A DNA stretch of 64,000 nucleotides from positions 1,646,123-1,710,122 of the forward strand of contig NZ_VDET01000002.1 of the NCBI RefSeq assembly GCF_006381105.1, given 5' to 3'. Below the pieces are notes generated by a model. That model worked only from the letters and a program-made list of their open reading frames with translations. It was not told where the DNA came from and did no database searches. The position numbers were made by a program, and so were the translations under genes. This document shows positions 1,786 through 26,930 of the stretch, in pieces; the stretch's first letter is position 1; each line of letters opens with the position of its first letter. This DNA is from Flavicella sediminum (GTDB lineage Bacteria; Bacteroidota; Bacteroidia; Flavobacteriales; Flavobacteriaceae).

Positions 1786-1798
1786 AATGTTTATTTTA

Positions 1799-3469: not shown

Positions 3470-3472
3470 CTT

Positions 3473-6765: not shown

Positions 6766-6773
6766 CAAATGTA
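6766..6773 (-). promoter_or_regulatory. Predicted -7 element of the susC promoter
   Basis: On the minus strand this reads TACATTTG, a perfect match to the Bacteroidota consensus TAnnTTTG. It lies about 108 nt upstream of the susC ATG and exactly 44 nt downstream of box A. A canonical -33 TTG is not obvious, which would suit an activator-dependent promoter. The rest of the gap between 6659 and 6966 holds box A, the GH88 terminator and no coding sequence. Confidence 0.7.
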
Positions 6774-6817
6774 AATAAAGTCTCGTGTTTATCTATGTGA
6801 AAAACACTGTTATTTGT

Positions 6818-6861
6818 CATAAAAGACAAAACTTACAAAGGATTAAGCAGTTCGTATAAAC
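6818..6861 (-). promoter_or_regulatory. PUL box A, conserved 44-bp upstream element (susC unit)
   Basis: One of three 44-bp elements found in this PUL, the others being at 24464-24507 and 26802-26845. Read in the direction of transcription, all three contain TTTAWAC near the start, a CTGCTTAWTC core in the middle, and TTTTGYCTTTT near the end. The distance from the box to the -7 element is 44 nt in every case. It is probably the binding site of an activator such as a hybrid two-component or AraC-like regulator. No such regulator is encoded in the window. Confidence 0.78.
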
Positions 6862-6886
6862 TTCCTCTTTTGCATTTTTTAGGAAT

Positions 6887-6931
6887 GAAAAAAAGATTCT
6901 AAGCCTTTTGTTTTATTGAGGTTTAGAATCT
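6887..6931 (-). terminator. Terminator after the GH88 gene
   Basis: On the minus strand AGATTCTAA..CC pairs with GG.TTAGAATCT across an A-rich loop and is followed by seven T residues. It ends the long enzyme unit and separates it from the susC promoter just downstream. Confidence 0.8.
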
Positions 6932-6966
6932 AGTAAGTTTTTGTTGTCTAGTTTGTTAATGTGGTT

Positions 6967-8184
6967 TTAGTTGCTGTTCTTCCATCTTAGAAGCGCTTCT
7001 AAAAAATAATAATCAGCATAATTTAAAGGAGCATCATTTTCATTGTTTTCATGAAAATTTCCAACAGAATGTTTTAGTAAAAAACCTCCATTATCTCCCT
7101 TTTTAGCAAAATATATATCAGACGCAAGTGTTCTTAAAATGGTTTCTGTATAGCTTAGATATTTACTTTTATTTCCTGGATCAAATTCTTGTAATTCTAG
7201 CAAGGCAGACGCAACAATTGCTGCGGCTGAAGCATCTCGTGGAATTTCTTCAGTGCTTTCTGCATCATAATCCCAAAATGGAATATGGTCGTTTGGAATT
7301 TTAGGGTGTTGCATAATAAATTGTGCTATTTTTTTAGCCTGTTCTAGAAAGAGTACATTTTTAGTTTCCCTATATACTTCGGTATATCCGTACAAACTCC
7401 AAGCTTGACCTCTAGCCCAAGAGGATTCATCTGCATAACCTTGAAAGTTTACTTTTTTTCTAACAAGTCCAGTTATATGGTCGTAATCAACAATATGATA
7501 ACAGCTAAAATCGCTCCGATATTGATTTTTAATGGTTGTGCCGGCGTGTGATGTAGCTATGTTTGCAAATGTAGTATCAGAACTGTGTTTTGTAGCTTGG
7601 TACAATAAGTTTAAATTCATCATATTGTCAATAATTACAGGCATGTCCAAGTCTTTTCCTTGAATCCAAGGCGCATCAGTGTCCCATGATTGAATTATTT
7701 TTGCCACGGGTCTGTACCTTGTACTTAAGGAATTCGCCGCATCAACGACAGCTTTTTTGTAGGTTTTATTGCCGGTTAAACGATAACCTTGTCCAAATGA
7801 ATTTTGAATCATAAAGCCAACATCATGGTTCCATTTAACAAATTGTGCCGAATCTAAGGCCATCGTATATCTATTTGCGTATGTTTTCCATTTTTCATTT
7901 TGTGTGTATTCAAATAAAAACCACAAGGATCCTGGAAAAAAACCACTGGTCCAATCTTGTTTGTAGGCCATTCTGTAACTACCATCCTTGTTTAAACTCC
8001 TAGGCTGTAGGAGAGGAGAAATAGTATCTATTTTCGAAATTAAATAGCTGAATTGGTCTTCGGCTACCTCAAAAACCCGAGTAATTACTTCTGTTTTTGA
8101 TTCTTGAGTATGATTTTTTTTACTTTGGCATTGAATGCATAAAAACAAAAATCCAAAGACAAACGGCAAGTTGTATTTTTTCAT
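6967..8184 (-). CDS. GH88 unsaturated glucuronyl hydrolase, lipoprotein
   Basis: Removes the 4,5-unsaturated uronic acid that a polysaccharide lyase leaves at the non-reducing end of oligosaccharides, using vinyl-ether hydration. The protein is 405 residues with a lipobox (LCIQC, Cys19), so it is probably anchored facing the periplasm. The (alpha/alpha)6 fold signatures are clear: GFFPGSLWFL, WNHDVGFM, DMPVIIDNMMNL and SSWARGQAWSLYG. D121 and D186 match the two essential aspartates of the family. It is the last gene of the ten-gene unit, 5 nt after GH3. Its presence means that at least one lyase acts upstream, for which the PL14-like protein is the best candidate in the same unit. Confidence 0.92.
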   Translation of the reverse strand: MKKYNLPFVFGFLFLCIQCQSKKNHTQESKTEVITRVFEVAEDQFSYLISKIDTISPLLQPRSLNKDGSYRMAYKQDWTSGFFPGSLWFLFEYTQNEKWKTYANRYTMALDSAQFVKWNHDVGFMIQNSFGQGYRLTGNKTYKKAVVDAANSLSTRYRPVAKIIQSWDTDAPWIQGKDLDMPVIIDNMMNLNLLYQATKHSSDTTFANIATSHAGTTIKNQYRSDFSCYHIVDYDHITGLVRKKVNFQGYADESSWARGQAWSLYGYTEVYRETKNVLFLEQAKKIAQFIMQHPKIPNDHIPFWDYDAESTEEIPRDASAAAIVASALLELQEFDPGNKSKYLSYTETILRTLASDIYFAKKGDNGGFLLKHSVGNFHENNENDAPLNYADYYFLEALLRWKNSN

Positions 8185-8189
8185 TTTTA

Positions 8190-10421
8190 TTAGTTTTTTA
8201 GTTTGAAATTCGCTGCTAATTGAGCGTCGGAATTTCCACCTATAAAAAGTGTAAAATCTCCATCTTCTGTTCCGGTGGATAAATCTGCTCTTACAAATGA
8301 TAAATCTCTTTCAGGAATAATTTCAAAGCGTATGGTTTTTGTTTCTCCTTTTTTAATTTTGATTTTTTCATAAGCTTTTAGTTCTCGTACAGGACGAGTT
8401 ACCGAACCTATTAAATCTCTTAAGTATAATTGCACGACTTCTTCTCCATCAAAATCTCCTGTGTTTTTAATGTTTACTGTCGCTGTTAATACGTCTTTGT
8501 TTGAAAGTGTTTCTTTGTCGATTTTTAAGTTGGAATACGCAAACGTTGTATAACTCAAGCCATATCCAAAGGGAAACAATGGGCTAGAGGGAATATCCAA
8601 AAATCGCGAAGAATACCGTACGTCAGGATTGCTCGGTCTTCCTGTATTTTTAAATGCATAATAAATAGGCAACTGTCCAATATCTCTTGGAAAAGTCATA
8701 GGCAGTTTTCCGGAAGGGTTGTATTTTCCAGTGAGTACATCTGCAATGGCATCCCCAGAAGTGGTTCCTAAAATCCATGTTTCAAGTACGGCGTTAGAAA
8801 GTTTTACTTCTTTTTCTAGGGTCATGGGCCTTCCGTTGGTTAAGATTAATACAATAGGTTTGTTTAATTTGGATAGTGTTTCTAATAATTTAGTTTGAAC
8901 ACCTGGTAAATTGATGTTTCCTTTGCTAGCTGCCTCCCCACTCATGTCTCCTTTTTCACCTAAGGCCAATAAAATAAGATCACTCTGTTTTGCTATTTTG
9001 ATTGCGTTTTTGAAATCTGAAGTATCATCAGAATCGATATCGCAGCCTTTGGTATATAGAAGTTTGCTGTTTTTAGGTAATTGCTTTTTTAAACCTTGAT
9101 AAGTTGTTACAACAGAAGTTGTGTCTCCTTGGGCTATCCAAGTTCCCATTGGGTCTGCTTGGTTTTTGGCAAGTGGACCAATAAGGGCAATAGTTTTTAG
9201 TTTTGATAAATTTAAAGGCAGAAGCTGATTTTCGTTCTTTAGCAATACGATAGATTTTCTAGCCATATCTCTTGCTATTGCTAAATTTGACTTGGTAAAT
9301 ACTTTATTTTTAGCCCTGTCTTCATTGCAGTATTTATAAGGATCGTCAAAAAGACCTAAATCGTATTTTACTCGTAAAATTCTACGGACAGAATTGTTTA
9401 ATTTTGAGATCTCTATTTTTTTTGCATCCACCAATGGTTGCACAATTTCTTCTTTGTAAACAGAAGCTTCCATGTCCATATCAAGTCCTGCGTTGATTGA
9501 TAGTTCAGCACATTGTTCTTTGTTTTCTGCAAAACCATGATTCATTAATTCTCCAATCGAGGCAAAATCAGAAACCACAAATCCGTCAAAGCCCCATTCA
9601 TCTCTTAAAACGTCGGTTAGTAATTTTTTGTTTGCTGTTGCAGGAATGCCGTTTACTTCGTTAAAAGCAGACATCATACTAGAAACGCCAGCATCTTTTG
9701 CCGATTTATAGGGTTTTAAATAGACCTCTCGTAAATAATTCTCAGAAAGATCAACGGTATTGTAATCTTTCCCCGAAATACTAGCACCATATGCGGCAAA
9801 GTGTTTGGCACAGGCCGCCACCGTATTGTTGTTTTTTAAATTACTTCCTTGGAATCCTTTTACGCGGGCTTTCGCAGCTAAACCGCCTAAGTAGGGATCT
9901 TCACCGGCACCTTCAGAAACTCGACCCCAGCGGGCATCACGTGCTAAATCTACCATTGGAGCAAATACCCAATTGATACCTGAGGCAGAAGCTTCATCTG
10001 CAGCTACAGCAGCAGTTTTTTCTAACATTTTCATATCCCAAGAAGCTGTTTCAGCTAAGGGAATTGGGAAAATAGTTTTGTATCCGTGAACGACATCGTA
10101 ACCAAATAACATCGGAATTTTTAAACGTGACTTCATGGCTAATCCTTGCAGGTATTTGATGCTATCCATAGAAATAGAAGCAAAAATGGCGCCTGCTCCT
10201 CCTTTCTGTATTTCTTCTCTAAATTTAGGGTTGAAAACAGGTACAGTAGGGTCTTCACCACTAGAATATAAGGTCATTTGTCCAACTTTTTCAGCCAAGG
10301 TCATTTGACTGATTAGGTTGTCTATAAATTTTTCTTTATCTGACTTTGTTGAGGTGTCAGAACAACTTTGAGTTATAATAACTGCAAATACAATAAGTAA
10401 GATTGATTTAAATTTTATCAT
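8190..10421 (-). CDS. GH3 beta-glucosidase-type glycosidase, lipoprotein
   Basis: Exo-acting beta-glycosidase of the BglX type, 743 residues, with a lipobox ending at Cys20 (ITQSC). It has the N-terminal TIM barrel with VFAPMVDLARDARWGR and the KH pair at 206-207. The nucleophile is D285 in GFVVSDFAS. An (alpha/beta)6 domain follows (IALIGPLA, LILALGEKGDMSGEA), then a C-terminal fibronectin III-like domain. Its ATG overlaps the stop of the upstream GH78 gene by one base (TAATG), which suggests translational coupling. It probably trims a beta-linked glucose, or possibly xylose, from oligosaccharides once GH88 has removed the unsaturated uronate. Exact specificity is unknown. Confidence 0.92.
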   Translation of the reverse strand: MIKFKSILLIVFAVIITQSCSDTSTKSDKEKFIDNLISQMTLAEKVGQMTLYSSGEDPTVPVFNPKFREEIQKGGAGAIFASISMDSIKYLQGLAMKSRLKIPMLFGYDVVHGYKTIFPIPLAETASWDMKMLEKTAAVAADEASASGINWVFAPMVDLARDARWGRVSEGAGEDPYLGGLAAKARVKGFQGSNLKNNNTVAACAKHFAAYGASISGKDYNTVDLSENYLREVYLKPYKSAKDAGVSSMMSAFNEVNGIPATANKKLLTDVLRDEWGFDGFVVSDFASIGELMNHGFAENKEQCAELSINAGLDMDMEASVYKEEIVQPLVDAKKIEISKLNNSVRRILRVKYDLGLFDDPYKYCNEDRAKNKVFTKSNLAIARDMARKSIVLLKNENQLLPLNLSKLKTIALIGPLAKNQADPMGTWIAQGDTTSVVTTYQGLKKQLPKNSKLLYTKGCDIDSDDTSDFKNAIKIAKQSDLILLALGEKGDMSGEAASKGNINLPGVQTKLLETLSKLNKPIVLILTNGRPMTLEKEVKLSNAVLETWILGTTSGDAIADVLTGKYNPSGKLPMTFPRDIGQLPIYYAFKNTGRPSNPDVRYSSRFLDIPSSPLFPFGYGLSYTTFAYSNLKIDKETLSNKDVLTATVNIKNTGDFDGEEVVQLYLRDLIGSVTRPVRELKAYEKIKIKKGETKTIRFEIIPERDLSFVRADLSTGTEDGDFTLFIGGNSDAQLAANFKLKN

Positions 10422-12814
10422 TATTTCAGCTTTATTTTTTGGTTTCCTTCTTTTAATGTAATTTTTTTCCCATTCCAGATAAATATTCCTGTACTTCCTT
10501 TTGGTAGCGATATTTCTCCTTTAATCGCTTTGTTTTTTCTTGTTAAGGTCACTTCTACAAAACCATTTGGGTGTGGCATTTTGGCTCTTAAATTTTTTAA
10601 TTCACCCAAGTTAGGTGCAATGGTTATTTTTTCGAAATTTTTAGATGCAGGCTGAATACCGGCTATTAAGGTTAAAAAATGATAATTTGGGGATGCACTC
10701 CAAGCATGACATTCAGATCGAGGCTCTATGTCTGTTTCAGCAAATGTTGTAAGTCCTTGTTCCAACTGATTTGTCCAATTTTGTAGCAGATTGACATATG
10801 TATCTCCTAAACCAGATTTTTGCAAGGCATTAAACAAATAGAATTTGTAATAAATTGTTGTTTGAATTAAGGATGAATCAGAGATTATCTTTTGCATTAG
10901 ATCCTTTTGGTTTTTTTTAGGAATGGCATCTGTTAGTATTGCTAAGATATTTGTGTGTTGAGAAAATTTTAATTTATTTGGTGTTTCTGCAAACATTCCT
11001 TTTTCTGGAACGAAACAGTTTTTTTGGACGCTTTTAAGAATTTTTTTTTGTAGGTCATCGTATTTTTTAGCTTCAGAAAGCATGCCTAAATCTGTGAATA
11101 TAGTTACTGTGTTTTGTAAAGTTTGTACAAGTTGTAATGCAATAGAACTTGAATACCCATCGTCTGCTCCGTCAGGAATTCCATTGTGGAATCCTGGGCT
11201 CCAGTCCGTGAAATTCCACCACTCCATTCCAGTTGGCATGCCTGTTTTGTTTACTTTATTAGCCCACCAATTTAGGACGGTTTTAATACCTGGGGTGAAT
11301 TTTTTTACAAAATCGGAATCATTTCTAAACCTGTGATAATCGTGGATCATATCAATCCAAAGCAATGAATAGGTGGGGATTACTTGAACTATATAGGAAG
11401 GGTATCTACTTTGTGTTAAGCCATTTGGTAATCGTGAATTATCAAACATTTCGATAGCTTTTCGCATCTGTCGATCATCTCCATCAACAGAAATAGAAAC
11501 CAAGGCTTCAATTCTAGCGTCTCCAACATATTGTAATTGTTCGTAATAAGGGTCAATAAAATTTTCAACAGCAGAGTTTCGAAGAGTCAACCAAGAAGCA
11601 TCCCAAATTTTGCTTAAAGTTTTGTTTTCTGTTTCAAATACCGCATTTTCTTTGAAAGGATAGGCCGTATAAACACCGTAGTAATCTTCAATTATTAAAG
11701 GTTCGTCTTTGGTATCTATTTCTAATTCAATAAAACGATAGGTTTTTTGACCAATTGGTTTGAACATATTATTTGAAGATCCATCCGCTATAATTATATC
11801 GTAGTAGCCTAAAATATGTTTGTCCTTTACAATATTCCTATTGCCTTTTTTCCAGTCTTTGGTGTACATGGCTTCAGAATAGGTTATTTTAATTTTACTG
11901 CCCTTTCCTTTTGAATAGTTAAATTCAGGATGGCCTATGGTATGGTGTTCTTGGTCGATTAATAGGGTTACTTTTTTATTAGCAGGAATGGTCAAAGCAC
12001 CCGTTCCTTTGATAAAATTATCGTTCATTTTCATTCCTTCTACACGTGCAATTTTTCCAAAGCGTTGCAAGCTTTCTTCTAAAAAAGGAATTGTTCTTGG
12101 AACTAAATACCAAGTGCTCCCGAAAAGAAAACCACGACCTACGGCGAATTCTACAGTTCCGGCTTTTGGAATTAACCAATTGGAATCATCAAAATTCTTT
12201 TTTTTCCAATTTTTATAGGTCTTTTTTGTGATTCTTTTTTCACCCGGTCCAGCTGCATAATATCCGCGTAGCGAGTCACTAACAAATGGGATGCTTTCAA
12301 AACCAAAATCGCGGACTACCTTCCAGTCACTTTTGTTACTGGTGTTTATATCAACAGGATTCTCTTCGTCACCTTGCATAATAAAAGCCGTTTGAAAGGT
12401 CATAGATGCTGCTTTTCTGTATTCACCGAAATTTACTACTTCGGTAGCAATAATGTTTTTCCCGGCAGTTAAGTAAGGGGCTATATCTAGGGTTTCATAC
12501 CTATAGTTGTTAATGTCTGATGAAGAAGGTCCTGAAACAATATAAGATCCGTTTACATACAAACGATAACGATTGTCTGCAGATACATGAACGATAAATT
12601 TGTCAGGTTTGCGATCTAAATCAATTTTTTTTCGAAATAAAAACATTCTGGCATCCAGGGTCGATTCTGTAGGATGTGTAATCCATTGGGCTGTCCATGC
12701 ATGTTTTAGCTGGTTGAAATCTTTTCCTTCTACATTAATGGTAGCTTTCGATTCTTGAGCAAAAACGCCAAGATGAATTAAAAGGAATAGGGACAAATAT
12801 TTTATAGTACGCAT
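10421..12814 (-). CDS. GH78-type alpha-L-rhamnosidase
   Basis: Predicted inverting alpha-L-rhamnosidase, 797 residues with a signal peptide ending at VFAQ. The N-terminal beta-sandwich carries FIVHVSADNRYRLYVNG, and a second beta domain follows. The (alpha/alpha)6 catalytic domain has IDPYYEQLQYVGDARIEALV, the equivalent of the classical D-x-x-x-E region, and MEWWNFTDW. Near the end EPRSECHAWSASPNYHFL and a C-terminal beta domain complete the family pattern. No lipobox is present, so it is probably soluble in the periplasm. It sits between the acetylesterase and GH3. The substrate glycan therefore probably contains rhamnose. Family assignment is firm; activity is inferred. Confidence 0.87.
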   Translation of the reverse strand: MRTIKYLSLFLLIHLGVFAQESKATINVEGKDFNQLKHAWTAQWITHPTESTLDARMFLFRKKIDLDRKPDKFIVHVSADNRYRLYVNGSYIVSGPSSSDINNYRYETLDIAPYLTAGKNIIATEVVNFGEYRKAASMTFQTAFIMQGDEENPVDINTSNKSDWKVVRDFGFESIPFVSDSLRGYYAAGPGEKRITKKTYKNWKKKNFDDSNWLIPKAGTVEFAVGRGFLFGSTWYLVPRTIPFLEESLQRFGKIARVEGMKMNDNFIKGTGALTIPANKKVTLLIDQEHHTIGHPEFNYSKGKGSKIKITYSEAMYTKDWKKGNRNIVKDKHILGYYDIIIADGSSNNMFKPIGQKTYRFIELEIDTKDEPLIIEDYYGVYTAYPFKENAVFETENKTLSKIWDASWLTLRNSAVENFIDPYYEQLQYVGDARIEALVSISVDGDDRQMRKAIEMFDNSRLPNGLTQSRYPSYIVQVIPTYSLLWIDMIHDYHRFRNDSDFVKKFTPGIKTVLNWWANKVNKTGMPTGMEWWNFTDWSPGFHNGIPDGADDGYSSSIALQLVQTLQNTVTIFTDLGMLSEAKKYDDLQKKILKSVQKNCFVPEKGMFAETPNKLKFSQHTNILAILTDAIPKKNQKDLMQKIISDSSLIQTTIYYKFYLFNALQKSGLGDTYVNLLQNWTNQLEQGLTTFAETDIEPRSECHAWSASPNYHFLTLIAGIQPASKNFEKITIAPNLGELKNLRAKMPHPNGFVEVTLTRKNKAIKGEISLPKGSTGIFIWNGKKITLKEGNQKIKLK

Positions 12815-12852
12815 AGGTATTCAATTTTTTATGTAATCTAAATAGAAGTAAG

Positions 12853-14346
12853 CTAGTTGATTTTTGTTTGAAATGGGGAAACAGGCAAATTGTTCGTCGA
12901 AATTACATTGGCCTCGGTATATGCTTTCCAAGCATAACGTATGTAAATTGGTTTTTTCTTAGGAATTGGATTTTTAAAGAAGATGGATTTTCCTTGAATT
13001 TCTGTCTGTAGTTTTGCAAAATTTAAATTGTCGTAACTAAATTCAAAACCAATAATTTCTTTTTCTCCTTTTGTTTTTAATTGGTTAAATGATCCTTTAA
13101 AATGTATTTGGAATCCATTTTTAGTAGCGCTTGTTTTATCAAAAAGTGGACTTTCATAATCGTCAATTAATTGATATGTATCGCCTAAAGCCAATATGGC
13201 TAATCTATCTCCAACAGGTTTTTTATTTTTTGCATGGGTATCATTTTTATCTCCAACATCGGTTATAACGACCATTTTAGAATTTGGAACAAGGTCGCGT
13301 AATTCACGTTGTGCATTTCTAAAAGCTGGCCAGGTAGATCGATTTTCACGGCTTGTTAATTGAACCGAGTAAAAAGGGAAATCTTGGTTGAAATCGGTTC
13401 TCCATAAGGCAACCATTTTTTGTAACATATTTTTGTACAATTCCGGATGTGCTGCATTCGATTCTCCTTGGTACCAAATAACACCTTTTATCACCATGTT
13501 TTTTATAGGAAGAATTCCGTTTACATAATTGTATGTCGGCATCCATGGGTGCTTTTGTTTTGTTGTGTGTGAAAGTGAAATTTGATTTTTAGCCGTCGAA
13601 ATCATTCCGTCCTCATTATTCTTATTTAGCCAACGTTGTTTGGTGAAATATTGGATAGCTGGATCCTGTGTTATTGTTTTTTTAGAAATCCAAGATTCTA
13701 TTGGAGATCCAGGAACGGCATTGTGAATAATACCTATAGGGATATTCAATTCTTTTTGTAGTTTCTCTGCAAAATAATAAGCCACAGCTGAAAAATAGCG
13801 TACATTTTCTGGGCTTGCTTTTACCCAACCCTTAGTATTGAAATAATGGTCGTTTTGAATTTTAGTCAATTCTGCTAGAGTGTGAACCCCATTTTCACCT
13901 GTTGGGTAGGTGGGTTTCATATTAAAGATTCTAATATTTTTGTTGTTGGCTTTTTTCGCAATTGCTTCACCGTCTATTGTTCGTTTTAAGTCTAAATGCA
14001 TATTAGATTGTCCCGAAGCAAGCCAAACTTCTCCAGCTAAAATATCTCGTATTGTAATACGGTCTTTTTTAGTGTGGATTTTGATACTGAAAGGAAGTCC
14101 GATTTTTTGTTTAGGAAGTGTTGTTTTCCATGTTCCATCTGGATTAACCTGTATGGTTTTGTGATGGGATTTTATCTTGAAAAAAACGGTGTCATTTGGT
14201 GTTCCTGTACCCCAAAGACTTATTGCTTGGTTTCTTTGTACAACCATGCCGTCCGATAAAACAGGCGCAACAGTTAATGTTTGTTGAGATTGTAGTGTAG
14301 GGATACAAAACAAACAGAGTAAGAAAAGTATGAATTGGTTTCGCAT
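12853..14346 (-). CDS. SGNH-type sialate O-acetylesterase family (SASA) carbohydrate esterase
   Basis: Carbohydrate esterase that probably removes acetyl groups from the target glycan. It is 497 residues with a signal peptide ending near LQSQ. The core has block I with GQSNM (Ser114), HNAVPGSPIESWI, and WYQGESNA (about 291-298). A late DVGDKNDTHAKNK segment offers the catalytic Asp/His. An inserted beta domain around residues 60-100 is normal for family members that act on plant or algal glycans. Despite the name, such proteins in PULs usually act on acetylated polysaccharides rather than sialic acid. It follows the PL14-like gene by 44 nt. Confidence 0.86.
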   Translation of the reverse strand: MRNQFILFLLCLFCIPTLQSQQTLTVAPVLSDGMVVQRNQAISLWGTGTPNDTVFFKIKSHHKTIQVNPDGTWKTTLPKQKIGLPFSIKIHTKKDRITIRDILAGEVWLASGQSNMHLDLKRTIDGEAIAKKANNKNIRIFNMKPTYPTGENGVHTLAELTKIQNDHYFNTKGWVKASPENVRYFSAVAYYFAEKLQKELNIPIGIIHNAVPGSPIESWISKKTITQDPAIQYFTKQRWLNKNNEDGMISTAKNQISLSHTTKQKHPWMPTYNYVNGILPIKNMVIKGVIWYQGESNAAHPELYKNMLQKMVALWRTDFNQDFPFYSVQLTSRENRSTWPAFRNAQRELRDLVPNSKMVVITDVGDKNDTHAKNKKPVGDRLAILALGDTYQLIDDYESPLFDKTSATKNGFQIHFKGSFNQLKTKGEKEIIGFEFSYDNLNFAKLQTEIQGKSIFFKNPIPKKKPIYIRYAWKAYTEANVISTNNLPVSPFQTKIN

Positions 14347-14390
14347 TGTATTTGTTGTTCTAGTAGAGGCTAGCTAATTGTTTTGTTTTT

Positions 14391-15239: not shown

Positions 15240-15243
15240 ATTC

Positions 15244-16299: not shown

Positions 16300-16306
16300 T
16301 TTCAGT

Positions 16307-18595: not shown

Positions 18596-18630
18596 TGTCG
18601 TTTGTTGGTTTAGGAATTGAATAAAGCATT

Positions 18631-18660
18631 AAAAAAACGAGTCGAAATAAATCGACTCAT
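18631..18660 (-). terminator. Intra-operon terminator or attenuator
   Basis: On the minus strand a 7-bp stem (GAGTCGA pairing with TCGACTC) with a short A/T loop is followed by seven T residues. It lies in the 86-nt gap between the last two-module gene and the beta-helix gene. I see no TAnnTTTG promoter in the gap, so downstream genes probably depend on read-through and would be expressed less than the three genes upstream. Confidence 0.68.
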
Positions 18661-18681
18661 TTTTATAAAAGAATCATACAT

Positions 18682-20325
18682 TTATTTTATAAATAGCTTT
18701 TGCGTTTTAGCAATGGTTTTGTCTTGTAATTTTGCAATATAAACTCCAGGAGCTAAATTTAAAACAACTTCTTGTTTGTTTCCGTCGACCGCTAATGTTT
18801 CAGAATGGATAAGTTGTCCTGTCAACGTATAAATTTGAAGGGTTGTAGTTTCTTTAAATCCTTCTGTAGAAATGGTCGCTTTTCCATTTGTAATCGGATT
18901 TGGGTATATGTTTAAAGTTGATTTCTCGTAGATAGTTACACCTAAGGAATTTTCTATTTCTAAGGTTAAAACAGGAGCTTGTTCGGTAGATTCATCGCTA
19001 ATTCCATAATAATGGGCACCTGTATTTCCTGAGGTAGCATCTACACTTAAACGTAAAAACACATAATCTCCTGCTTCAGCTCCCGCGTCGTATTGTGCAT
19101 TTAAATAAGCGGCTAAGGCGGTATCTCCTGTGTTGCTAGAGTTTACTTCTCTATCGGTTAATATTTCGGTACCTAAAGGTTCCGTATCTCCTGTGTCTCT
19201 AACAAAATAAGCATCTTGAATACCCGTAACTGTTCCGGTAGCATCAGGATACGTGCCGTCATAAAAATTACTTGGAGATATAGTGTTTGAAGCATTGTAA
19301 GGTAGTCCGTATAAGTCAATATCTGATGAAATCCAATGTCTTAAATAGGCCACGTTTATTTTTAAATTAGCACTAGCAACTAATTTACCTTCGGGTCTGG
19401 CAGGTAACTGAAAAGGTAAAATAGCATTGGTGGTATTTGGGGCTCCAGTTGGGTCGCTGGCACCTATTTTTAATACATTTGTTCCGTCAATTGTGTTACC
19501 TCCAATCCAAGGGTTTGTTCCTCCTTCAGCTAAATTAGCGGTGTTTACAATAATTCCATCACCTGTAGGGTTTACATTGTGACTTGTAGTGGGGGTTGGC
19601 TCAACCTCTTCCGCTTCTTCAATTTCCAAAGTTAAGGTAGGAGCATTGGTTGTTGAACCATCATCAACACCAAAATAATGTGCACCCGTGGTTGCAGGAT
19701 TGTCTACATTTAACCTTAAAAATATAAAATCTCCGGCAACTGCACCAGCATCATATTGCGCATTTATATAGGCCGCTAGTGCTGTGTTCCCTGCGGTGCT
19801 TGTTTCTTCAAAACGAGGCGTATCTAAATTTCCTGGCGCTACATTTTTTGCGAAAAAATCATCTTCAATAGCCGTTACTCCTAAAGTGGCATCTGGGTAT
19901 GCATCGTCGAAATGATTTGCTGGATCTATAGTACTCATGGCATTGTAACTTAGTCCATATAAGTCAACATTTGAGGTGATCCATTCTCTTCCATAATTGA
20001 CATGGATTTTTAAACTTGCAGAAGTTACCGACTTACCTGAAGGTCGTTCAGGTAATTTAAAAGGAATAATAGCACTTGTTGTAAATCCAGCTCCGTTGGC
20101 CGCACTAGCTCCAATTTTTAAAGATTGTACACCTCCAACATTGTTTCCGGTTAGATAAGGGTTGAAAGTTGGCATATCAGTTATGTCAGATACAATTCCA
20201 TCATTGTGATAAGCTTGTTCTGGAACAATTTCAGGTTTTATGGTATGTGATGTCTGTGCTTTTGTAGCAAATGGAATAGAAGCAAAAACAATTCCTAAAA
20301 TTGAATTTAAAATTTTATGGTTCAT
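18682..20325 (-). CDS. Two-module secreted binding protein with T9SS sorting domain (copy 1)
   Basis: No known family is recognised with certainty. The 547 residues consist of a signal peptide (ending TKAQ), two tandem copies of the PUL module (about 27-235 and 245-455), an acidic linker between them (EEAEEVEPTPTT), and a type A T9SS sorting domain (IYPNP, LTGQLIHSE, PGVYIAKL). No catalytic motif is present. Each module carries FKLP/FQLP...RP.GK, a DxDLYGL strand, YDAGA..GDF/YxFLRL and HYYGISDES-like ends. The layout recalls DNRLRE/CBM96-type beta-sandwiches, so glycan binding at the cell surface is the best guess. It is very similar to its neighbour at 20349-21983, indicating a local duplication. 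Confidence 0.75.
   Translation of the reverse strand: MNHKILNSILGIVFASIPFATKAQTSHTIKPEIVPEQAYHNDGIVSDITDMPTFNPYLTGNNVGGVQSLKIGASAANGAGFTTSAIIPFKLPERPSGKSVTSASLKIHVNYGREWITSNVDLYGLSYNAMSTIDPANHFDDAYPDATLGVTAIEDDFFAKNVAPGNLDTPRFEETSTAGNTALAAYINAQYDAGAVAGDFIFLRLNVDNPATTGAHYFGVDDGSTTNAPTLTLEIEEAEEVEPTPTTSHNVNPTGDGIIVNTANLAEGGTNPWIGGNTIDGTNVLKIGASDPTGAPNTTNAILPFQLPARPEGKLVASANLKINVAYLRHWISSDIDLYGLPYNASNTISPSNFYDGTYPDATGTVTGIQDAYFVRDTGDTEPLGTEILTDREVNSSNTGDTALAAYLNAQYDAGAEAGDYVFLRLSVDATSGNTGAHYYGISDESTEQAPVLTLEIENSLGVTIYEKSTLNIYPNPITNGKATISTEGFKETTTLQIYTLTGQLIHSETLAVDGNKQEVVLNLAPGVYIAKLQDKTIAKTQKLFIK
19253..19350 (-). repeat. Near-identical 98-bp segment, copy 1
   Basis: This stretch of the second module matches 20920-21017 in the neighbouring gene with only three differences in 98 bases. 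That is closer than the modules around it, which suggests recent duplication or gene conversion between the two genes. Confidence 0.85.
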
Positions 20326-20348
20326 AAATTTTAGTTTTAAAAATTAGT

Positions 20349-21983
20349 TTATTGAATGATTAATTTATGCGTAGCACTTTGGTTTTGGTCCTGTATTTTT
20401 ACAATATATACTCCAGATTCTAAATTTAAAAGAACCTCTTGCGCATTTGCGGCAGCATTTATTGTCTTTGCAAACACCATTTGACCAGCCAATGAATAGA
20501 TTTGAAGTGTGGAGTTTTCTGTAAAGCCTTCTGTAGAAACGGTGATTTTTCCATCTGATACTGGATTAGGGAAAATAGCTACAGTCGATTCTTTGTAAGA
20601 TTTTGTATCCAAAACATTTTCAATTTCTAATGTCAATACAGCAGCTTCTGAAGTAGATTCATCACTGATACCATAGTAATGTGCTCCTGTATTACCAGAA
20701 GTAGCATCTACACTCAATCTTAAAAACACATAATCTCCTTCTTCTGCGCCAGCATCGTATTGCGCATTTAGGTACGAAGCTAAGGCAGCGTCTCCTGAAG
20801 TGTCAGAATTTACTTCTCTATCTGTAAGTATTTCGGTACCTGTTGGCTCAGTGCCTCCTGTATCTCTAACAAAATAGGCATCTTGAATTCCAGTTGCTGT
20901 TTCTGTAGCATCAGGGTAGGTGCCGTCATAAAAATTACTTGGAGATATAGCGTTTGAAGCATTGTAAGGTAGTCCGTATAAGTCAATATCTGAAGAAATC
21001 CAGTGTCTTAAATAGGCAACGTTTATTTTTAAATTGGCACTGGCAACCAATTTACCTTCCGGTCTATTTGGTAGTTGAAAAGGCAAAATAGCGTTTGTTG
21101 TATTTGGATTTCCGCCTGGATCACTAGCTCCTACTTTTAATACAGTAGTTCCGTCAATTGAATTTCCTCCAAGCCATGGATTTGAAGCTCCTTCGGCTAA
21201 ATTAGCGGTGTTTACAATGATTCCATCACCAGTCGGGTTTACATTAAATGTAGTGGTTGGTGTAACTTCCGCTTCTTCAATGACAATTGTTAAGGTAGGT
21301 GCATTGGCGGTAGATCCATCGTCTACACCAAAATAATGGGCACCTGTAGTTGCTGGGTTGTCCACATTTAGTCTTAAAAAAACATAATCTCCAGCGACAG
21401 CACCTGCATCATATTGCGCATTTAAATAAGCCACCAAAGCGGCATCTCCACTAGTGTTTGTTTCTTCAAATCGTGCACTGTCTAAATTTCCTGCGGCAAC
21501 ATTTTTGGCGAAATAATTGTCCTCAATTTCTGTGGCACCAGCAGTAGCGTCAGGATACGCATTGTCGTAATGATTTGCTGCATAAATGGTGCTTGCTGAA
21601 TTGTAAGTAAGTCCATATAAATCAACGTTTGATGTTATCCATTCTCTTCCGTAATTGACATGTACTTTTAAATTAGCACTGGTTACTAATTTTCCTGAAG
21701 GACGTACGGGTAATTTAAAAGGAATGATGGCGCTTGTCGTAAAACTTGCCCCATTGGATGCACTTGCTCCAATTTTTAAAGATTTTATTCCGCCAACGTC
21801 ATTACCATTTAAGTAGGGGTTGTTTGTAGGGACATCTGTTATGTCAGAAACGATTCCATCGTTATAGTAACTTTGAGAAGGAACAATTTCAGGTTTTACA
21901 TTGTAGGTGGTTTGAGCTTGTGCAACAAATGTTGCCATGCTCAGTGTTATTCCTAATAATGAAGTTAGTAGTTTTGCTTTCAT
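20349..21983 (-). CDS. Two-module secreted binding protein with T9SS sorting domain (copy 2)
   Basis: Paralogue of the next gene in the unit, with the same plan: signal peptide (ending VAQAQ), module 1 (about 27-235), a short linker, module 2 (about 243-452) and a type A T9SS sorting domain (IFPNP, LAGQMVFAK, SGVYIVKI). It is 544 residues long. The second modules of the two proteins are nearly the same through the DLYGLPYNAS and AYFVRDTG regions. There is no catalytic signature. Being the second gene after the promoter and upstream of the hairpin at 18631, it should be among the most expressed proteins of the unit. A role as exported glycan-binding or scaffold protein is inferred. Confidence 0.75.
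   Translation of the reverse strand: MKAKLLTSLLGITLSMATFVAQAQTTYNVKPEIVPSQSYYNDGIVSDITDVPTNNPYLNGNDVGGIKSLKIGASASNGASFTTSAIIPFKLPVRPSGKLVTSANLKVHVNYGREWITSNVDLYGLTYNSASTIYAANHYDNAYPDATAGATEIEDNYFAKNVAAGNLDSARFEETNTSGDAALVAYLNAQYDAGAVAGDYVFLRLNVDNPATTGAHYFGVDDGSTANAPTLTIVIEEAEVTPTTTFNVNPTGDGIIVNTANLAEGASNPWLGGNSIDGTTVLKVGASDPGGNPNTTNAILPFQLPNRPEGKLVASANLKINVAYLRHWISSDIDLYGLPYNASNAISPSNFYDGTYPDATETATGIQDAYFVRDTGGTEPTGTEILTDREVNSDTSGDAALASYLNAQYDAGAEEGDYVFLRLSVDATSGNTGAHYYGISDESTSEAAVLTLEIENVLDTKSYKESTVAIFPNPVSDGKITVSTEGFTENSTLQIYSLAGQMVFAKTINAAANAQEVLLNLESGVYIVKIQDQNQSATHKLIIQ
20920..21017 (-). repeat. Near-identical 98-bp segment, copy 2
   Basis: Counterpart of 19253-19350, differing at three positions. 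A third, clearly more divergent relative lies in the module of the NodB-like gene near 22600-22690. Confidence 0.85.
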
Positions 21984-22014
21984 GATTTTTTGGTTTTATT
22001 GTTAAGTATTTAGT

Positions 22015-24336
22015 TTACTGTATAATTAATTTTTCGGTTTTTGATTTTACACCGTTGGTAATTTTAACAATGTATATTCCTGGTTGCAGATTTATTTTTG
22101 TTGTAAATTTTTCTAGTGTATCATTTTTGATAATTTCATGATGCATTAATGTCCCTGCTAATGAATAGATATTCAAGTCGGTTTTTTGTTGTTCGAAACC
22201 ATGCAATGCAAAAGATATTTCTCCATTTGTCACTGGATTTGGATAGATTTCTAAACTAGTTTCTTCATAACTAGTAGTCGTTAGAATATTTTCAATTTCT
22301 AGGCTTAAAGTCGGTGCCAATTCAGTTGATTCATCACTTATTCCGTAGTAATGCGCACCGGTACTGCCCGAGGTAGCGTCTACGCTCAAACGTAAAAAGA
22401 TGTAGTCTCCAGATACGGCACCGGCATCGTATTGTGCATTTATATAAGCAACTAAAGCTGTATCTCCATTGTTGTCAGAATTAACAATTCTATCGGTCAA
22501 AATTTCGGTACCTAAGGGTTCAGAGTCTCCCGTATCTCTTACAAAATAGGCATCTTGAATTCCAGTTACTGTTCCGTTTGCATCAGGGTATGTGCCATCA
22601 TAAAAATTATTTGGAGTAATAGTATTTGAAGTACTATAAGGCAGGCCGTATAAATCAATATCTGATGAAATCCAATGACGTAAATAGGCGACATTTATTT
22701 TTAAATTAGCAGCAGTTACTGATTTTCCTGAAGGTCGTATAGGGAGTTTAAAAGGAAGTATGGCATTGGTTGTAAAGGAAGCTCCTGTAGAAGCACTCTG
22801 ACCAATTTTTAAGACCGTGGTTCCGTCAATTCCATTTCCGTTGAGCCAAGGATTGGTGCCTCCTTCAGCTAAGTTGGCAGCATCAGAAATAATTCCGTCT
22901 CCTGTAGGGGTTATTTCGTAAGTAGAAGTGGCCTCACCACCAGAATCAGGACTTACTGATAGTTGGAAGGTTTTTGAAGAAAAGCTCCTCCCGTTATTGG
23001 CAATAATGGTGATATTTTGATAATCACCAGCATCAGAGTCTGATGGAGAAAAAATTATTTTCCCTGTATTGTCGCCATTGTCTGTTAAAATTCCAAAACT
23101 GGGTAAATTTGAAGTGCTAAAAGAAATGGCATCATTCCCAGTTGTTGCTGCTGAAAAATCTACCTGTAAATTAGCTCCTTCTAACATCGATTTGCTTTCA
23201 AGAGCACTAATTACTGCAGGATCAGCATCAGTAACTCCAGTAAGTGTGACTTGACCACCATCAGGAACTGCCTTTATTATTGCGTATTTATTGCCACTGT
23301 TTGTGATGATTTCAGTTGCAACTGTAGTACCATTTTGGGTTGCTGAAATAGAAGCCCATGAATTGTCAATTCTTATTTTAACGGATAAAGGGAAGTAAAA
23401 AGCGCTGTCTAACATGTCATCTGTTAAAGTGAATTTTATCTCACTAGCAGAGTTGCTGTCAATTGTTAGGTTGTGTGTTGCAAAAGATTGAGAATATTGT
23501 GAGACTTCCGTAAAGCCTGCCACCCATAAATCTGTTTTGTTAGCTAAATATTGTAAAAATTCATCTGTAGTCGTTTCACCAGGTGTGTCGACATAATGAA
23601 AATGTGTGCTAGCCCAACCTCTGTAGTAGTTGCTGCCATAAAGCTTGCTGGTTTTGTCTAAAAGTGGTAAAATATATTTATCTCTATTTGTATCATTTCC
23701 ATAGATATGAACATTAGAAATACTATTGATGTCTAAATAATCTATGGTGTTTGGTTGATTTAAAATCCCAGTAGTTCCTCTTACTCCAATAAATAATTTG
23801 CCAGCTTCTGTTCTGTTTCCTTCTCCAAAAGGATAGGCATATGTCAAGCAATTATTAGTGCCTGAAGTTACATTTGTGTTTACCGTATTTATTGTTGCTT
23901 GAAGTCTGGCTAAATAATCGGTATCTGATGGGTTTGTTTCACCGCTACCTGGTGTTTTGTACCAATTTCTATCATCATGTCCGTTTATTTGACTTCCTAA
24001 GTTTGCAAGGTCGTTGTAAAGTGTCCAGTTTTGCACATTGTATTGTGAGGCGGCTTCTGTAATTACAAACCAAGTAAAATGAAAATTATATTTAGCAATC
24101 ATGGTTTTCCAAAAAGGAATGTTTGATTCATTGTTGTCGTCTATGGTAATCGTAAATGCAGCTAGTTTGTCGTCGCTCCACATACATACATCTCCTTCGC
24201 CAATATTTGTTGGCCAAACTTTATCGGTAACTGTAAATCGAGCGCTTGAAGCACTGTCTAAATTCAAGGTGTTTTGACCTGTTATTTGAATAAAGGGTAT
24301 TGCTAGGAGTAATAAGAAAGTTTTTGTTTTGATCAT
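22015..24336 (-). CDS. NodB-type deacetylase-like protein with Ig-like domain, PUL module and T9SS domain
   Basis: First gene of the ten-gene unit, 773 residues, exported (signal peptide ending near ITGQ). Residues about 40-310 resemble the polysaccharide deacetylase (CE4/NodB) fold. AAFTITIDDNN (D66, D67) stands in the place of the TFDDG motif, GSQINGHDDRNW (H120) in that of the H(S/T)xxH motif, and YAYPFGEGN in that of the third motif. The second metal-binding histidine is not evident, so it may be inactive or have altered chemistry. An Ig-like domain (about 375-470), one PUL module (about 475-685) and a T9SS sorting domain (IYPNP, PGIYIVKI) follow. Fold assignment is moderate; function is uncertain. 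Confidence 0.7.
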   Translation of the reverse strand: MIKTKTFLLLLAIPFIQITGQNTLNLDSASSARFTVTDKVWPTNIGEGDVCMWSDDKLAAFTITIDDNNESNIPFWKTMIAKYNFHFTWFVITEAASQYNVQNWTLYNDLANLGSQINGHDDRNWYKTPGSGETNPSDTDYLARLQATINTVNTNVTSGTNNCLTYAYPFGEGNRTEAGKLFIGVRGTTGILNQPNTIDYLDINSISNVHIYGNDTNRDKYILPLLDKTSKLYGSNYYRGWASTHFHYVDTPGETTTDEFLQYLANKTDLWVAGFTEVSQYSQSFATHNLTIDSNSASEIKFTLTDDMLDSAFYFPLSVKIRIDNSWASISATQNGTTVATEIITNSGNKYAIIKAVPDGGQVTLTGVTDADPAVISALESKSMLEGANLQVDFSAATTGNDAISFSTSNLPSFGILTDNGDNTGKIIFSPSDSDAGDYQNITIIANNGRSFSSKTFQLSVSPDSGGEATSTYEITPTGDGIISDAANLAEGGTNPWLNGNGIDGTTVLKIGQSASTGASFTTNAILPFKLPIRPSGKSVTAANLKINVAYLRHWISSDIDLYGLPYSTSNTITPNNFYDGTYPDANGTVTGIQDAYFVRDTGDSEPLGTEILTDRIVNSDNNGDTALVAYINAQYDAGAVSGDYIFLRLSVDATSGSTGAHYYGISDESTELAPTLSLEIENILTTTSYEETSLEIYPNPVTNGEISFALHGFEQQKTDLNIYSLAGTLMHHEIIKNDTLEKFTTKINLQPGIYIVKITNGVKSKTEKLIIQ

Positions 24337-24411
24337 GAGAATAATTTCTTGGTTTTGGTTGTCTTTGAAATAATGTCAAAGGAGACTTTCAAAGGAATAA
24401 AATGGTGTACT

Positions 24412-24419
24412 CAAATATA
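24412..24419 (-). promoter_or_regulatory. Predicted -7 element of the ten-gene unit
   Basis: Minus-strand TATATTTG matches TAnnTTTG and lies about 76 nt upstream of the NodB-like ATG and 44 nt downstream of box B. The stretch just upstream of it (ACATTAGGTTTACT on the minus strand, 24432-24445) is also present at the same spacing before the 26750 promoter. Confidence 0.75.
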
Positions 24420-24463
24420 CATAATTGACTTAGTAAACCTAATGTTTACAGTGGGTTAGGGGG

Positions 24464-24507
24464 CATAAAAGACAAAACTAACAAATGAATAAGCAGATAG
24501 TATAAAC
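24464..24507 (-). promoter_or_regulatory. PUL box B, conserved 44-bp upstream element (ten-gene unit)
   Basis: Second copy of the box described at 6818-6861, and nearly the same as it at both ends (GTTTATAC at the start and TTTTGTCTTTTATG at the end, read on the minus strand). It sits just after the stop of the upstream beta-helix gene. I see no terminator between that gene and this box. Confidence 0.8.
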
Positions 24508-24569
24508 GCTAAAATGGCTTTTGGTAATTCTTTTGTTTTTTGTGAAGGTTTTTGTTTGGAGGAGTGTAT

Positions 24570-26702
24570 TTACCAGACAAATAAAATTTGCTTTTTTGTT
24601 TCAGACTCAGTTGTGGATTCTAATATGTATTTGCCTGTCGCTAGTTTTAAGTTTTTAGTTCGAAGCGTGTTTTTATGTAAATCTGAAGGTTTCAAACGAT
24701 GTTCATAAACTTGTTGGCCGGACAAATTAAAAAGCTTTAGCTGAATTAGATCATCAGGATGAAAACCAAGAAAGTAGAAGTTAAGGTCGCCGTTAGATAA
24801 TAGGTTTGGAGCACTTGCAATGGTGTTTTTTATTTTTTCAATTTTTTGAGCTGTTTCTTGGTTGAATTCTGGATAGCCAATAGTGATTTCTAAGGAAGGA
24901 CGGTTTTCTTTTGAATTGGCGCTTGCAAAATTCCATCTGTTAAAGTCGGTCACATTGTTGGCATTGGGATTCATTCTTAAAAAAAGGAAATTTTGTGAAT
25001 CTGTTTTTGACGTGATTATTGTATTTAAATAATCTTTAAGTCCGTTTTTAGCTGTTGGACTGGTGTTTATTTCTCCTGTAAATGAGTCGGAATCAATAAA
25101 ATTATTTTGAATAGGTCTCGCAGAAATATCTTGACCGAAGGTTCCTTGGTAATACATGTCTTCTGTTACCCAAAAGTCAGTTTTTGGAGGAAGTCCGTAT
25201 AGGTCAATTCCACCTTGAGGTTGATTGTCGACTTGCGTTAAGTGTACTTTGAAATTGGCTGAAATAACTTTTTTCCCTTTAGGTATATTGGGAAGTTTAA
25301 AAGGAAAGACTCCTGAACCATCAATTCCTTCTCCCACACCTCCAATACGTATTTGAGTTTGCCCGTCCCAATCTCCTTTACCTTTGGCATGTAATTGTCT
25401 GTCTGATTGTTCAGCTATAATTGTTAATTGTTCATTTCCTTCGTCAATTTTTGTGAATTCAAAAGCGCCTATGTTGACAAAATTGCCTAAAGTTCTTTTG
25501 TTTAAAGTGGCATCAAGTTTTGGTGCCATGTCTGAAGTACCCGTGTTTAAGGCAATGGAATAGTTATTTAAGGAAAAATCAAACAATGCCCAGTTTTTAA
25601 AACAGTCATCAAAAGCATGAACTGAAACAGGCAATGTAAGGTTATGGTCTGCAATTCCTTTAATGTTGTCAAATAAAATATTGTTTGCTAAATTGTTTTT
25701 GATGATTAGGTTTGAAGATTCATTTTCTCCAATAAGTTGAATAGCGATCGATGAATTAATTTTTTCTTCTTTGTTAAAATACAATCCAAAATAAGGGTTG
25801 ACGACAGTGTTGTTTACAATTTTAAGATTGTTTAGTTCTCCTTTTAAATATATTCCTTTTGTTCCGTTACTAATGACTAGGTTGTTTTCGAAAATACTGC
25901 TCGATATTTTTAAATCAGTACCATAGATTCCATGCAGTAAACCAATATGTTTTCTATTTGGTTTGGTGAAATTTAAAATAGTATTTCCTCGCATGATAGT
26001 ACCGGTTATTTCATTGGAATGGCAGAAGATACCAATATTAGTTTCTTCGTTAATGGCAATACTTTCTTTAATTATGTTGTATTCAAGTAAGTTTGAGCTA
26101 CCGGAAATTTCAACGCCATATTGGCTAAAAAAATCGATTCTATTATTTCTAATTTGATTTTTTTCTCCAGAAATATTGATTCCTTTTTTGTAAGCCGAAA
26201 TAATATTGTTTTCAATTTTACATTGGGATCCTTTTAATTCAATGGCCGTTGTAGTGTTCTTGTTGGAAAGAAAATTATTTTCTAATAAACGAATTTTACT
26301 ACTGTTCGGATTGATAAGAATAGTGTTGTTGTTTAAGGCGTTATCAAACGTGATGTTTTTAAGTGTCCATCTTGAAGCGCCTAAAATCTCGGTTCCAAAT
26401 ACTATTGAGTTGACAACTGCTCGGTGCGATTCTACGCCAATAATATTTATATATTTTTCATTTTCACCTACAATTTGTACATGACCATGATTTCCGGTTA
26501 ATAAATACAAGTTGTCTCCTATGATGAATTTTTTGCCATTTTCAAAAACAGATTGTAAAGTTTTCCAAGGTTTTTCTTTACTACCATCGTTGGTTGTTTT
26601 TCCGTTTACTGGATCGCAATAAAAATTTGTAGCAAATAGGCTTTGTAGTGTCAATAGGCAAAAAGCGACTAAAAAACTCAATTTTGTATTTCTATTGACC
26701 AT
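24570..26702 (-). CDS. Secreted beta-helix protein with PUL module and divergent T9SS-like end
   Basis: Exported 710-residue protein that forms its own unit behind box C. The signal peptide ends at LFAT. The FYCDPVNGKTTNDGSKEKPW cap and roughly 370 residues of N-N-x-I rungs match the beta-helix protein at 16307-18595. One PUL module follows (about 430-625; FPFKLPNIPKGKKV, DLYGLPP, NFLFLRMNPN). The C-terminal roughly 70 residues look like a divergent T9SS sorting domain (LKLFNLSGQQVYEHRL, ATGKYIL). No lyase catalytic set is clear. It could be a depolymerase, an epimerase or a binding protein. The start is placed at the ATG before the signal peptide. Confidence 0.77.
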   Translation of the reverse strand: MVNRNTKLSFLVAFCLLTLQSLFATNFYCDPVNGKTTNDGSKEKPWKTLQSVFENGKKFIIGDNLYLLTGNHGHVQIVGENEKYINIIGVESHRAVVNSIVFGTEILGASRWTLKNITFDNALNNNTILINPNSSKIRLLENNFLSNKNTTTAIELKGSQCKIENNIISAYKKGINISGEKNQIRNNRIDFFSQYGVEISGSSNLLEYNIIKESIAINEETNIGIFCHSNEITGTIMRGNTILNFTKPNRKHIGLLHGIYGTDLKISSSIFENNLVISNGTKGIYLKGELNNLKIVNNTVVNPYFGLYFNKEEKINSSIAIQLIGENESSNLIIKNNLANNILFDNIKGIADHNLTLPVSVHAFDDCFKNWALFDFSLNNYSIALNTGTSDMAPKLDATLNKRTLGNFVNIGAFEFTKIDEGNEQLTIIAEQSDRQLHAKGKGDWDGQTQIRIGGVGEGIDGSGVFPFKLPNIPKGKKVISANFKVHLTQVDNQPQGGIDLYGLPPKTDFWVTEDMYYQGTFGQDISARPIQNNFIDSDSFTGEINTSPTAKNGLKDYLNTIITSKTDSQNFLFLRMNPNANNVTDFNRWNFASANSKENRPSLEITIGYPEFNQETAQKIEKIKNTIASAPNLLSNGDLNFYFLGFHPDDLIQLKLFNLSGQQVYEHRLKPSDLHKNTLRTKNLKLATGKYILESTTESETKKQILFVW

Positions 26703-26749
26703 GGGTTTTGATTTGATGTTTTCTGACTAAAAATAATATTTAGGAGTCT

Positions 26750-26757
26750 CAAAAGTA
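26750..26757 (-). promoter_or_regulatory. Predicted -7 element of the second beta-helix gene
   Basis: Minus-strand TACTTTTG matches TAnnTTTG. It was found by looking exactly 44 nt downstream of box C, as at the other two sites. It lies 47 nt upstream of the ATG. ACATTAGGTTTACT is shared upstream with the 24412 promoter. Confidence 0.75.
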
Positions 26758-26801
26758 CATAAATACTAAAGTAAACCTAATGTGTATAAGTGTTTAGAGG
26801 G

Positions 26802-26845
26802 TAGAAAAGGCAAAATCCACAAGTGATTAAGCAGATCGTTTAAAG
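26802..26845 (-). promoter_or_regulatory. PUL box C, conserved 44-bp upstream element (beta-helix unit)
   Basis: Third and most divergent copy of the box. It keeps the CTGCTTAATC core exactly and the TTTTGCCTTTT end with one change. Confidence 0.75.
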
Positions 26846-26892: not shown

Positions 26893-26930
26893 AAAAAAAG
26901 CCTTTTAATCAAAAGATTAAAAGGCTTTAG
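26893..26930 (-). terminator. Terminator after tRNA-Leu
   Basis: A long stem (AAAGCCTTTTAATC pairing with GATTAAAAGGCTTT) followed by a T run on the minus strand, directly downstream of the tRNA. Confidence 0.9.

Follow-up and report, generated by a model that had tools for sequence, protein, structure and literature searches.

A phased direct-repeat box before the three units of a polysaccharide utilization locus of Flavicella sediminum, and a linked AraC-type protein as its candidate activator

The locus and its three boxes

The window analysed here is a stretch of 64,000 nucleotides (nt) of the Flavicella sediminum genome (G000, contig C12:1646123-1710122), whose leftmost 26.7 kb are occupied by a polysaccharide utilization locus (PUL) on the minus strand. 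An earlier note on this DNA had described three 44-bp boxes within the PUL, each at an identical distance from a TAnnTTTG element, and had proposed that they are sites of an activator touching RNA polymerase from a fixed position, which would split the locus into three co-regulated units. The units, boxes and promoter elements are as follows:

58..6658, minus strand: unit 1, with susC (3473-6658), susD (1799-3469) and the gene of a 584-aa protein (58-1812)
6766..6773, minus strand: TACATTTG, -7 element of unit 1, 44 nt from box 1
6818..6861, minus strand: box 1, in the promoter of the susC unit; a 40-nt core with two half-sites at a 21-bp period
6967..24336, minus strand: unit 2, the enzyme unit of ten genes
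24412..24419, minus strand: TATATTTG, -7 element of unit 2, 44 nt from box 2
24464..24507, minus strand: box 2, in the promoter of the ten-gene enzyme unit
24570..26702, minus strand: unit 3, encoding a 710-aa beta-helix protein
26750..26757, minus strand: TACTTTTG, -7 element of unit 3, 44 nt from box 3
26802..26845, minus strand: box 3, in the promoter of the beta-helix gene

Read on the minus strand, the coordinates of the boxes and of the TAnnTTTG elements, the 44-bp lengths and the TTTAWAC, CTGCTTAWTC and TTTTGYCTTTT parts all agree with the earlier description, and the distance of 44 nt is exact for the three promoters, the third -7 element included. Each of the minus-strand units has its box 5' of its first gene, with 107, 75 and 47 nt between TAnnTTTG and the ATG of units 1, 2 and 3. 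The pattern CTGCTTAWTC-N0-6-TTGT-N3-6-TTTTGYCTTTT matches exactly three times in the 4.58-Mb genome (reversed control: 0), and a genome search found no other full-length copies of the box. Considering the background of TAnnTTTG in the intergenic DNA of the same genome (0.0015 per position; 9 in 6028, the three promoters included), the chance that boxes 2 and 3 both have the element at the offset of box 1 is of the order of 2e-6.

Structure of the box

The conserved core covers 40 nt (TTTATAC..CTTTT) and the final letters of the 44-nt box vary. Column autocorrelation peaks at lag 21 among lags 8-30 (z 2.1, p 0.024, uncorrected for 23 lags), and no palindrome was detected in the box (p 0.79). 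The two half-sites, A and B, read TTTATACNATCTGCTTAAT and TTTGTNNNTTTTGTCTTTT and follow the pattern TTTATAC-N3-CTG-N-TTAAT and TTTGT-N4-TTTG-N-CTTTT, 21 bp apart.

In the parts of PMC3870299 used here, AraC-type rhamnose regulators of Bacteroides, Bacillales and Enterococcus are described with unique motifs that form a 21-bp direct repeat, and the part of PMC3878776 on hybrid two-component systems (HTCS) of Bacteroides gives their operators as direct repeats of 16+5, 12+9 or 14+6 bp, with periods of 20-21 bp. As the direct-repeat form is common to AraC-type and HTCS operators, the form of the box fits both. The SusR-like layout given in the same part of PMC3878776 (direct repeats with centres 67 or 77 bp apart) was not matched, the half-sites lying 21 bp apart within the 40-nt core.

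Outside the box, the spacers of promoters 2 and 3 (24432-24445 and 26770-26783, minus strand) have ACATTAGGTTTACT in common, and a similar sequence, TAGGWTTAG, is present in promoters 2 and 3 of several relatives and is not seen before susC. This spacer sequence is perhaps a second site.

Conservation and phasing in related genomes

A search with SusC gave six named genomes with a 78-81% identical protein: Tamlana haliotis, four Winogradskyella species and Polaribacter marinus. In each of them, susC is preceded by the box and a TATATTTG. Two models of the box were built, both without the TAnnTTTG element. The first, R1, is a sequence-only model from nine boxes (the three own boxes and the six susC boxes of the relatives), and it retrieved two further boxes per relative on the PUL contig, outside its training set. 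For ten of these twelve the expect values (E) lie between 1.7e-7 and 0.0036, and for the remaining two they are 1.1 and 1.2; the third boxes range from 4.5e-4 to 1.1 and the second box of G426 is at 1.2, so that chance matches (E 0.0016-0.0033) overlap with them. The weak ones were accepted because of their full length, their place on the PUL contig and their promoter element. The second model, R2 (alignment A2), was made from 15 of the 21 boxes, with most third boxes in training and near-identical Winogradskyella copies omitted; it detects three boxes in each of the seven genomes (F. sediminum, Tamlana, the four Winogradskyella and Polaribacter), and these 21 boxes have E 1.2e-7 or better.

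The claim of identical phasing holds at 44 nt for the three promoters of the window and is relaxed across genomes, where the element lies 44 (11 promoters), 45 (7) or 46 (4) nt after the end of the box. Equivalently, TAnnTTTG starts 47 (11), 48 (7) or 49 (4) nt after CTTTT in all 22 promoters (the 21 above and the relic described below), counts in which orthologous promoters are not independent events. When promoters of different genera are paired, the box has an identity of 0.83-0.88 and the -7 element one of 0.88-1.00, whereas the values are 0.41-0.48 for the spacer, 0.31-0.42 for the DNA upstream and 0.41-0.48 for that downstream (15 of the 22 promoters, near-identical Winogradskyella copies omitted; nine pairs for each of the three promoter groups). 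The three boxes in six further PULs, the element at 44-46 nt and the diverged spacers thus support three co-regulated units under an activator acting from a fixed position.

A -33-like TTG was found 17-23 nt before TAnnTTTG in none of 15 promoters, a count made without a control set; its absence suits an activator-dependent promoter. The TAnnTTTG element of F. psychrophilum is placed at -12 to -5 in the part of PMC9723704 used here, and with the same numbering the 40-nt core falls at about -99 to -60.

The candidate regulator

The earlier note had put the regulator outside the window and had pointed to hybrid two-component or AraC genes just left of position 1; an AraC gene is indeed found there, 5.7 kb to the left. 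It is one of three AraC-type genes within 20 kb, and the one for which the relatives were searched. The gene (L005:13430-14293, minus strand; G000:C12:1639555-1640415) encodes a protein of 287 aa with an HTH_18 domain and an AraC_binding domain, the cupin-type ligand domain. It is divergent from an operon of Rieske, creatininase and aldo-keto reductase (AKR) genes, an arrangement that flanks the PUL in the six relatives (76-82% identity) and is syntenic in all seven genomes. The NCBIfam RhaS and RhaR models score far below their cut-offs.

Orthologues of this level occur in two of 397 genomes of the family, namely F. sediminum and G317, whose box coordinates are those of the Tamlana record. 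Among the 68 genomes of the Winogradskyella group, an orthologue (E<=1e-70) is present in four, which are exactly the four with three boxes. With stricter filters, R2 gave a single match (G453) in the 64 Winogradskyella-group genomes without the orthologue and no match below E 2.3e-4 in 165 other Polaribacter-group genomes; in fifteen genomes with AraC paralogues only, plus G052, nothing was better than E 0.006. Seven weak R2 matches (five other Polaribacter-group genomes at E 2e-4 to 6e-4, G098 and contig C31 of F. sediminum itself) were dismissed as chance, given that six of them have no TAnnTTTG within 120 nt downstream and L158 has one at 11 nt.

No full box was found in the intergenic region between araC and the Rieske operon. 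The five aligned genomes show strong conservation over about 85 bp upstream of araC (L005 14291-14511, alignment A3), ending with TAnATTTG 7 nt before the ATG. This footprint, with the element so close to the ATG, suggests that the leader is very short or missing and that there is further regulation.

Rhamnose genes and AraC paralogues

In the six relatives, box 2 precedes the orthologue (68-71% identity) of the window gene 22015-24336, and the gene behind box 3 is the L-rhamnose gene rhaEW; where the flank was fetched (four relatives), rhaEW is followed by rhaI, rhaK, lldD and the beta-helix orthologue. The araC gene is at the same locus as rhaEW in all six. In the window, unlike in the relatives, box 3 stands directly before the beta-helix gene, and the rhamnose gene near araC is rhaT alone (NCBIfam, above cut-off), just left of the window. 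The rhaEW and rhaI genes of F. sediminum lie by themselves on a 3.2-kb contig (L099, G000:C11, 3212 bases) that is broken inside both genes; such a short contig hints at a repeat or an assembly gap.

Seventeen loci with paralogues of the candidate AraC (32-36% identity) were examined, and a full box was found at none of them, scores being at most 10.4 bits. The G091 paralogue (33% identity) is transcribed divergently from rhaI-rhaK-lldD, and a SusC homologue, a GH78-like gene (GH, glycoside hydrolase family) and rhaEW lie nearby. The 94-bp gap between its araC and rhaI contains half-site A at 20.8 bits; further copies follow at 43 nt (3.4 bits) and 64 nt (8.6 bits) but are far weaker. In 2.06 million partly overlapping positions, besides the real boxes and the relic, three distinct sequences score at least 18 bits for half-site A, namely the G091 gap, one that was selected by the box model itself (22.0 bits) and one of 19.3 bits at L005 1918, inside an open frame. 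Recognition helices are the parts by which AraC-type proteins recognize DNA, and NSLxYFSK is common to the second recognition helix of the G091 protein and of the candidate AraC. Another paralogue, in G180, is upstream of rhaEW-rhaI-rhaK.

A relic and a replaced control

The single match in G453, a member of the Winogradskyella group, is a box with E 4e-9 (L163/L164; G453:C12:108989-109034); the 107-bp stretch that holds it matches promoter 3 of W. sediminis at 94% identity. The intact box and TATTTTTG are fused to the 3' part of dctM. In two Winogradskyella a dctM gene flanks the PUL on the far side of araC, and the G453 frame is 94-97% identical to it. The gene beside this box, as beside promoter 3 of W. 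sediminis, is one that we take to be patatin-like. Neither a PUL protein match (E<=1e-8) in the 40 kb fetched nor an AraC orthologue at E<=1e-70 was found in G453. Most simply, a deletion running from promoter 3 into dctM would have taken the PUL and araC together.

The earlier note had expected the boxes in orthologous PULs of related genomes. Besides the F. sediminum locus, six of the seven homologous PULs (SusC at least 65% identical) have them; the box is absent from that of G052, a genome of another family of the same order (SusC 65%, SusD 51%, beta-helix protein 43%). In G052, AATCGATT occurs at three places in 14.9 kb (0.31 expected), twice in the promoter region of susC and once directly in front of the beta-helix gene:

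L098 (G052 C142) 4206-4213, 4276-4283 and 12839-12846: AATCGATT palindromes, ACAATCGATTGT-like

These palindromes are probably a LacI-type operator, which would put the homologous PUL under different control, and the comparison with the boxed PULs suggests regulatory replacement.

Gene content and boundaries of the units

Three further features delimit the units:

6894..6931, minus strand: hairpin with 13-nt arms (92%), just before box 1, a likely terminator of unit 2
26897..26928, minus strand: perfect 14-nt hairpin between tRNA-Leu and box 3, a likely tRNA terminator
26930-27016: tRNA-Leu gene, adjoining the start of the PUL

Since one hairpin closes unit 2 before box 1 and the other parts box 3 from tRNA-Leu, the split into three units is sound. 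The start of the PUL beside a tRNA gene, together with the patchy occurrence of its araC in Winogradskyella (4/68), is an island-like sign.

The 584-aa protein of unit 1 has a weak match to a sialidase-like carbohydrate-binding module, below the Pfam cut-off. Unit 2 encodes GH88-like, GH3 and GH78-like proteins, a SASA esterase, a polysaccharide lyase of family PL14, an alpha/beta hydrolase and four proteins with sorting tails of the type IX secretion system (T9SS; genes at 22015, 20349, 18682 and 16307). In the relatives (L054 4565-8530 and orthologues), a GH94 phosphorylase and an MFS_2 sugar transporter stand between the GH78-like and GH88-like genes, a position at which the PUL of the window has GH3. 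The GH94 and MFS_2 genes of the relatives, together with PL14, GH88, GH78 and RhaT, point to a polymer of uronic acid, rhamnose and glucose as substrate, and the three operons look like a system for the import and digestion of a putative rhamnose-containing polysaccharide.

Discussion

We consider it likely that the boxes, which look functional, are the operators of a three-promoter PUL regulon, that its activator is the 287-aa AraC protein and that its inducer is L-rhamnose. One activator, this AraC-family protein, would then occupy the boxes at all three promoters, with two AraC DNA-binding domains on the two half-sites, 21 bp apart and on the same helix face. It would contact RNA polymerase upstream of a TAnnTTTG promoter without an evident -33 element, the core at about -99 to -60 being in a class-I-like position, and it would respond to L-rhamnose or a close derivative set free by the PUL enzymes. 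From the sequence comparisons, we infer AraC as the best-supported regulator and L-rhamnose as the likely signal, and the whole can be read as a flavobacterial RhaR-like regulon extended to a PUL.

Several results weigh against this assignment. The clearest one against a universal box is its absence from the homologous PUL of G052. AraC, PUL and boxes are linked, and their joint occurrence can tell them apart only in part; in G453 a box is present and an AraC orthologue is not, though the site resembles a deletion scar. In F. sediminum itself, rhaEW and rhaI are on an orphan contig with their promoter out of view, so that a fourth box is not visible, and the genome search found no box at rhaT or at the Rieske operon. 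The footprint upstream of araC resembles half-site B weakly (best 5.6-11.1 bits in five genomes; real boxes 18.6-27.6). Among the paralogue loci, two of 17 (flanks of about 1.5 kb) touch rhamnose genes, and the gap of the G180 paralogue beside rhaEW has no full box, its half-site being at 11.6 bits. Finally, the 21-bp period is significant to a modest degree, and HTCS operators show similar periods.

This last point leads to the strongest competing explanation, in which the boxes are bound by an unlinked HTCS, the kind of regulator that usually activates PULs in Bacteroides, and AraC controls the divergent Rieske/creatininase/AKR operon only. The operator form does not discriminate, Bacteroides HTCS operators being direct repeats too in the account given in part of PMC3878776, and the genome has 17 Y_Y_Y (HTCS-type sensor) matches; the nearest of them is, however, 224 kb from the window, and no HTCS gene linked to the PUL was found. 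In the listed stretches of the relatives, the frames above 1200 aa are those of 2058 and 2148 aa, the former T9SS-tailed (Pfam). Moreover, a rhamnose operon under the same box suits a cytoplasmic sugar sensor, and a half-site lies beside an AraC paralogue at rhaI. We therefore regard an HTCS as unlikely.

Appreciably less probable is conservation for a reason other than operator function, such as an upstream promoter element, an RNA leader or a repeat-borne sequence. The sequence is AT-rich, the spacers at boxes 2 and 3 have sequence in common and the G453 copy outlived the loss of the PUL; against this, the box is upstream of the promoter element and hence outside any leader, spacers and flanks have diverged, other full-length copies were not found in the genome, and the box is absent from 63 of the 64 Winogradskyella genomes without the AraC orthologue, as it is, down to E 2.3e-4, from the 165 Polaribacter-group genomes. 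Least credible of all is a LacI-type regulator (the kduI-linked one of Winogradskyella, or the window gene 50624-51652): in the two Winogradskyella loci for which enough flank was fetched, araC does have a LacI gene at a distance of about 3 kb, another is in the window, and the Tamlana and Polaribacter flanks, reaching 1.1-1.4 kb past araC, leave room for one farther out, but the box lacks the palindromic form given for LacI operators in the part of PMC3870299 used here, and G052, with palindromes at its promoters, has no box.

With the AraC protein as activator, we lean, with less assurance than for the locus itself, towards a wider view: in marine Flavobacteriaceae, a one-component, monosaccharide-sensing AraC protein (RhaR-like), and not an HTCS, may run a whole PUL together with L-rhamnose catabolism. 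The promoters involved would form a class of their own, without a -33 element and with two half-sites, at about -99 to -60, in fixed phase to TAnnTTTG, and the PUL of the other family would have been rewired to a palindromic, LacI-like operator at equivalent promoters. A concrete operator, regulator and inducer are thereby proposed for a flavobacterial PUL, and it is suggested that outer-membrane glycan import and monosaccharide catabolism can form one regulon under a cytoplasmic sugar sensor. The boxes also illustrate what an activator-dependent TAnnTTTG promoter might look like, with its activator at a fixed position, and the comparison with G052 would be a natural case of regulatory replacement between homologous PULs.

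No description of this regulon was found in the literature searched, and three known systems, compared here from parts of the cited papers, come near to it. The Bacteroides HTCS regulons (PMC3878776) similarly have several promoters of one PUL with a direct-repeat operator of 20-21 bp period, but the linked regulator here is a one-component AraC protein and no HTCS gene was found at the locus. Bacteroides RhaR (BT3768; PMC3870299, PMC3878776) is likewise an AraC-family regulator of rhamnose genes, with its operator upstream of L-rhamnose catabolic genes; as far as can be compared by description and not by sequence, its regulon is a single operon, with PULs under HTCS and SusR, whereas the box described here also precedes susC/susD and secreted enzymes. 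RhaS and RhaR of E. coli and Erwinia (PMC3870299) are AraC-type rhamnose activators as well, and Erwinia RhaS also controls rhamnogalacturonide genes; their sites are given there as inverted repeats, in contrast to the direct repeat of the box.

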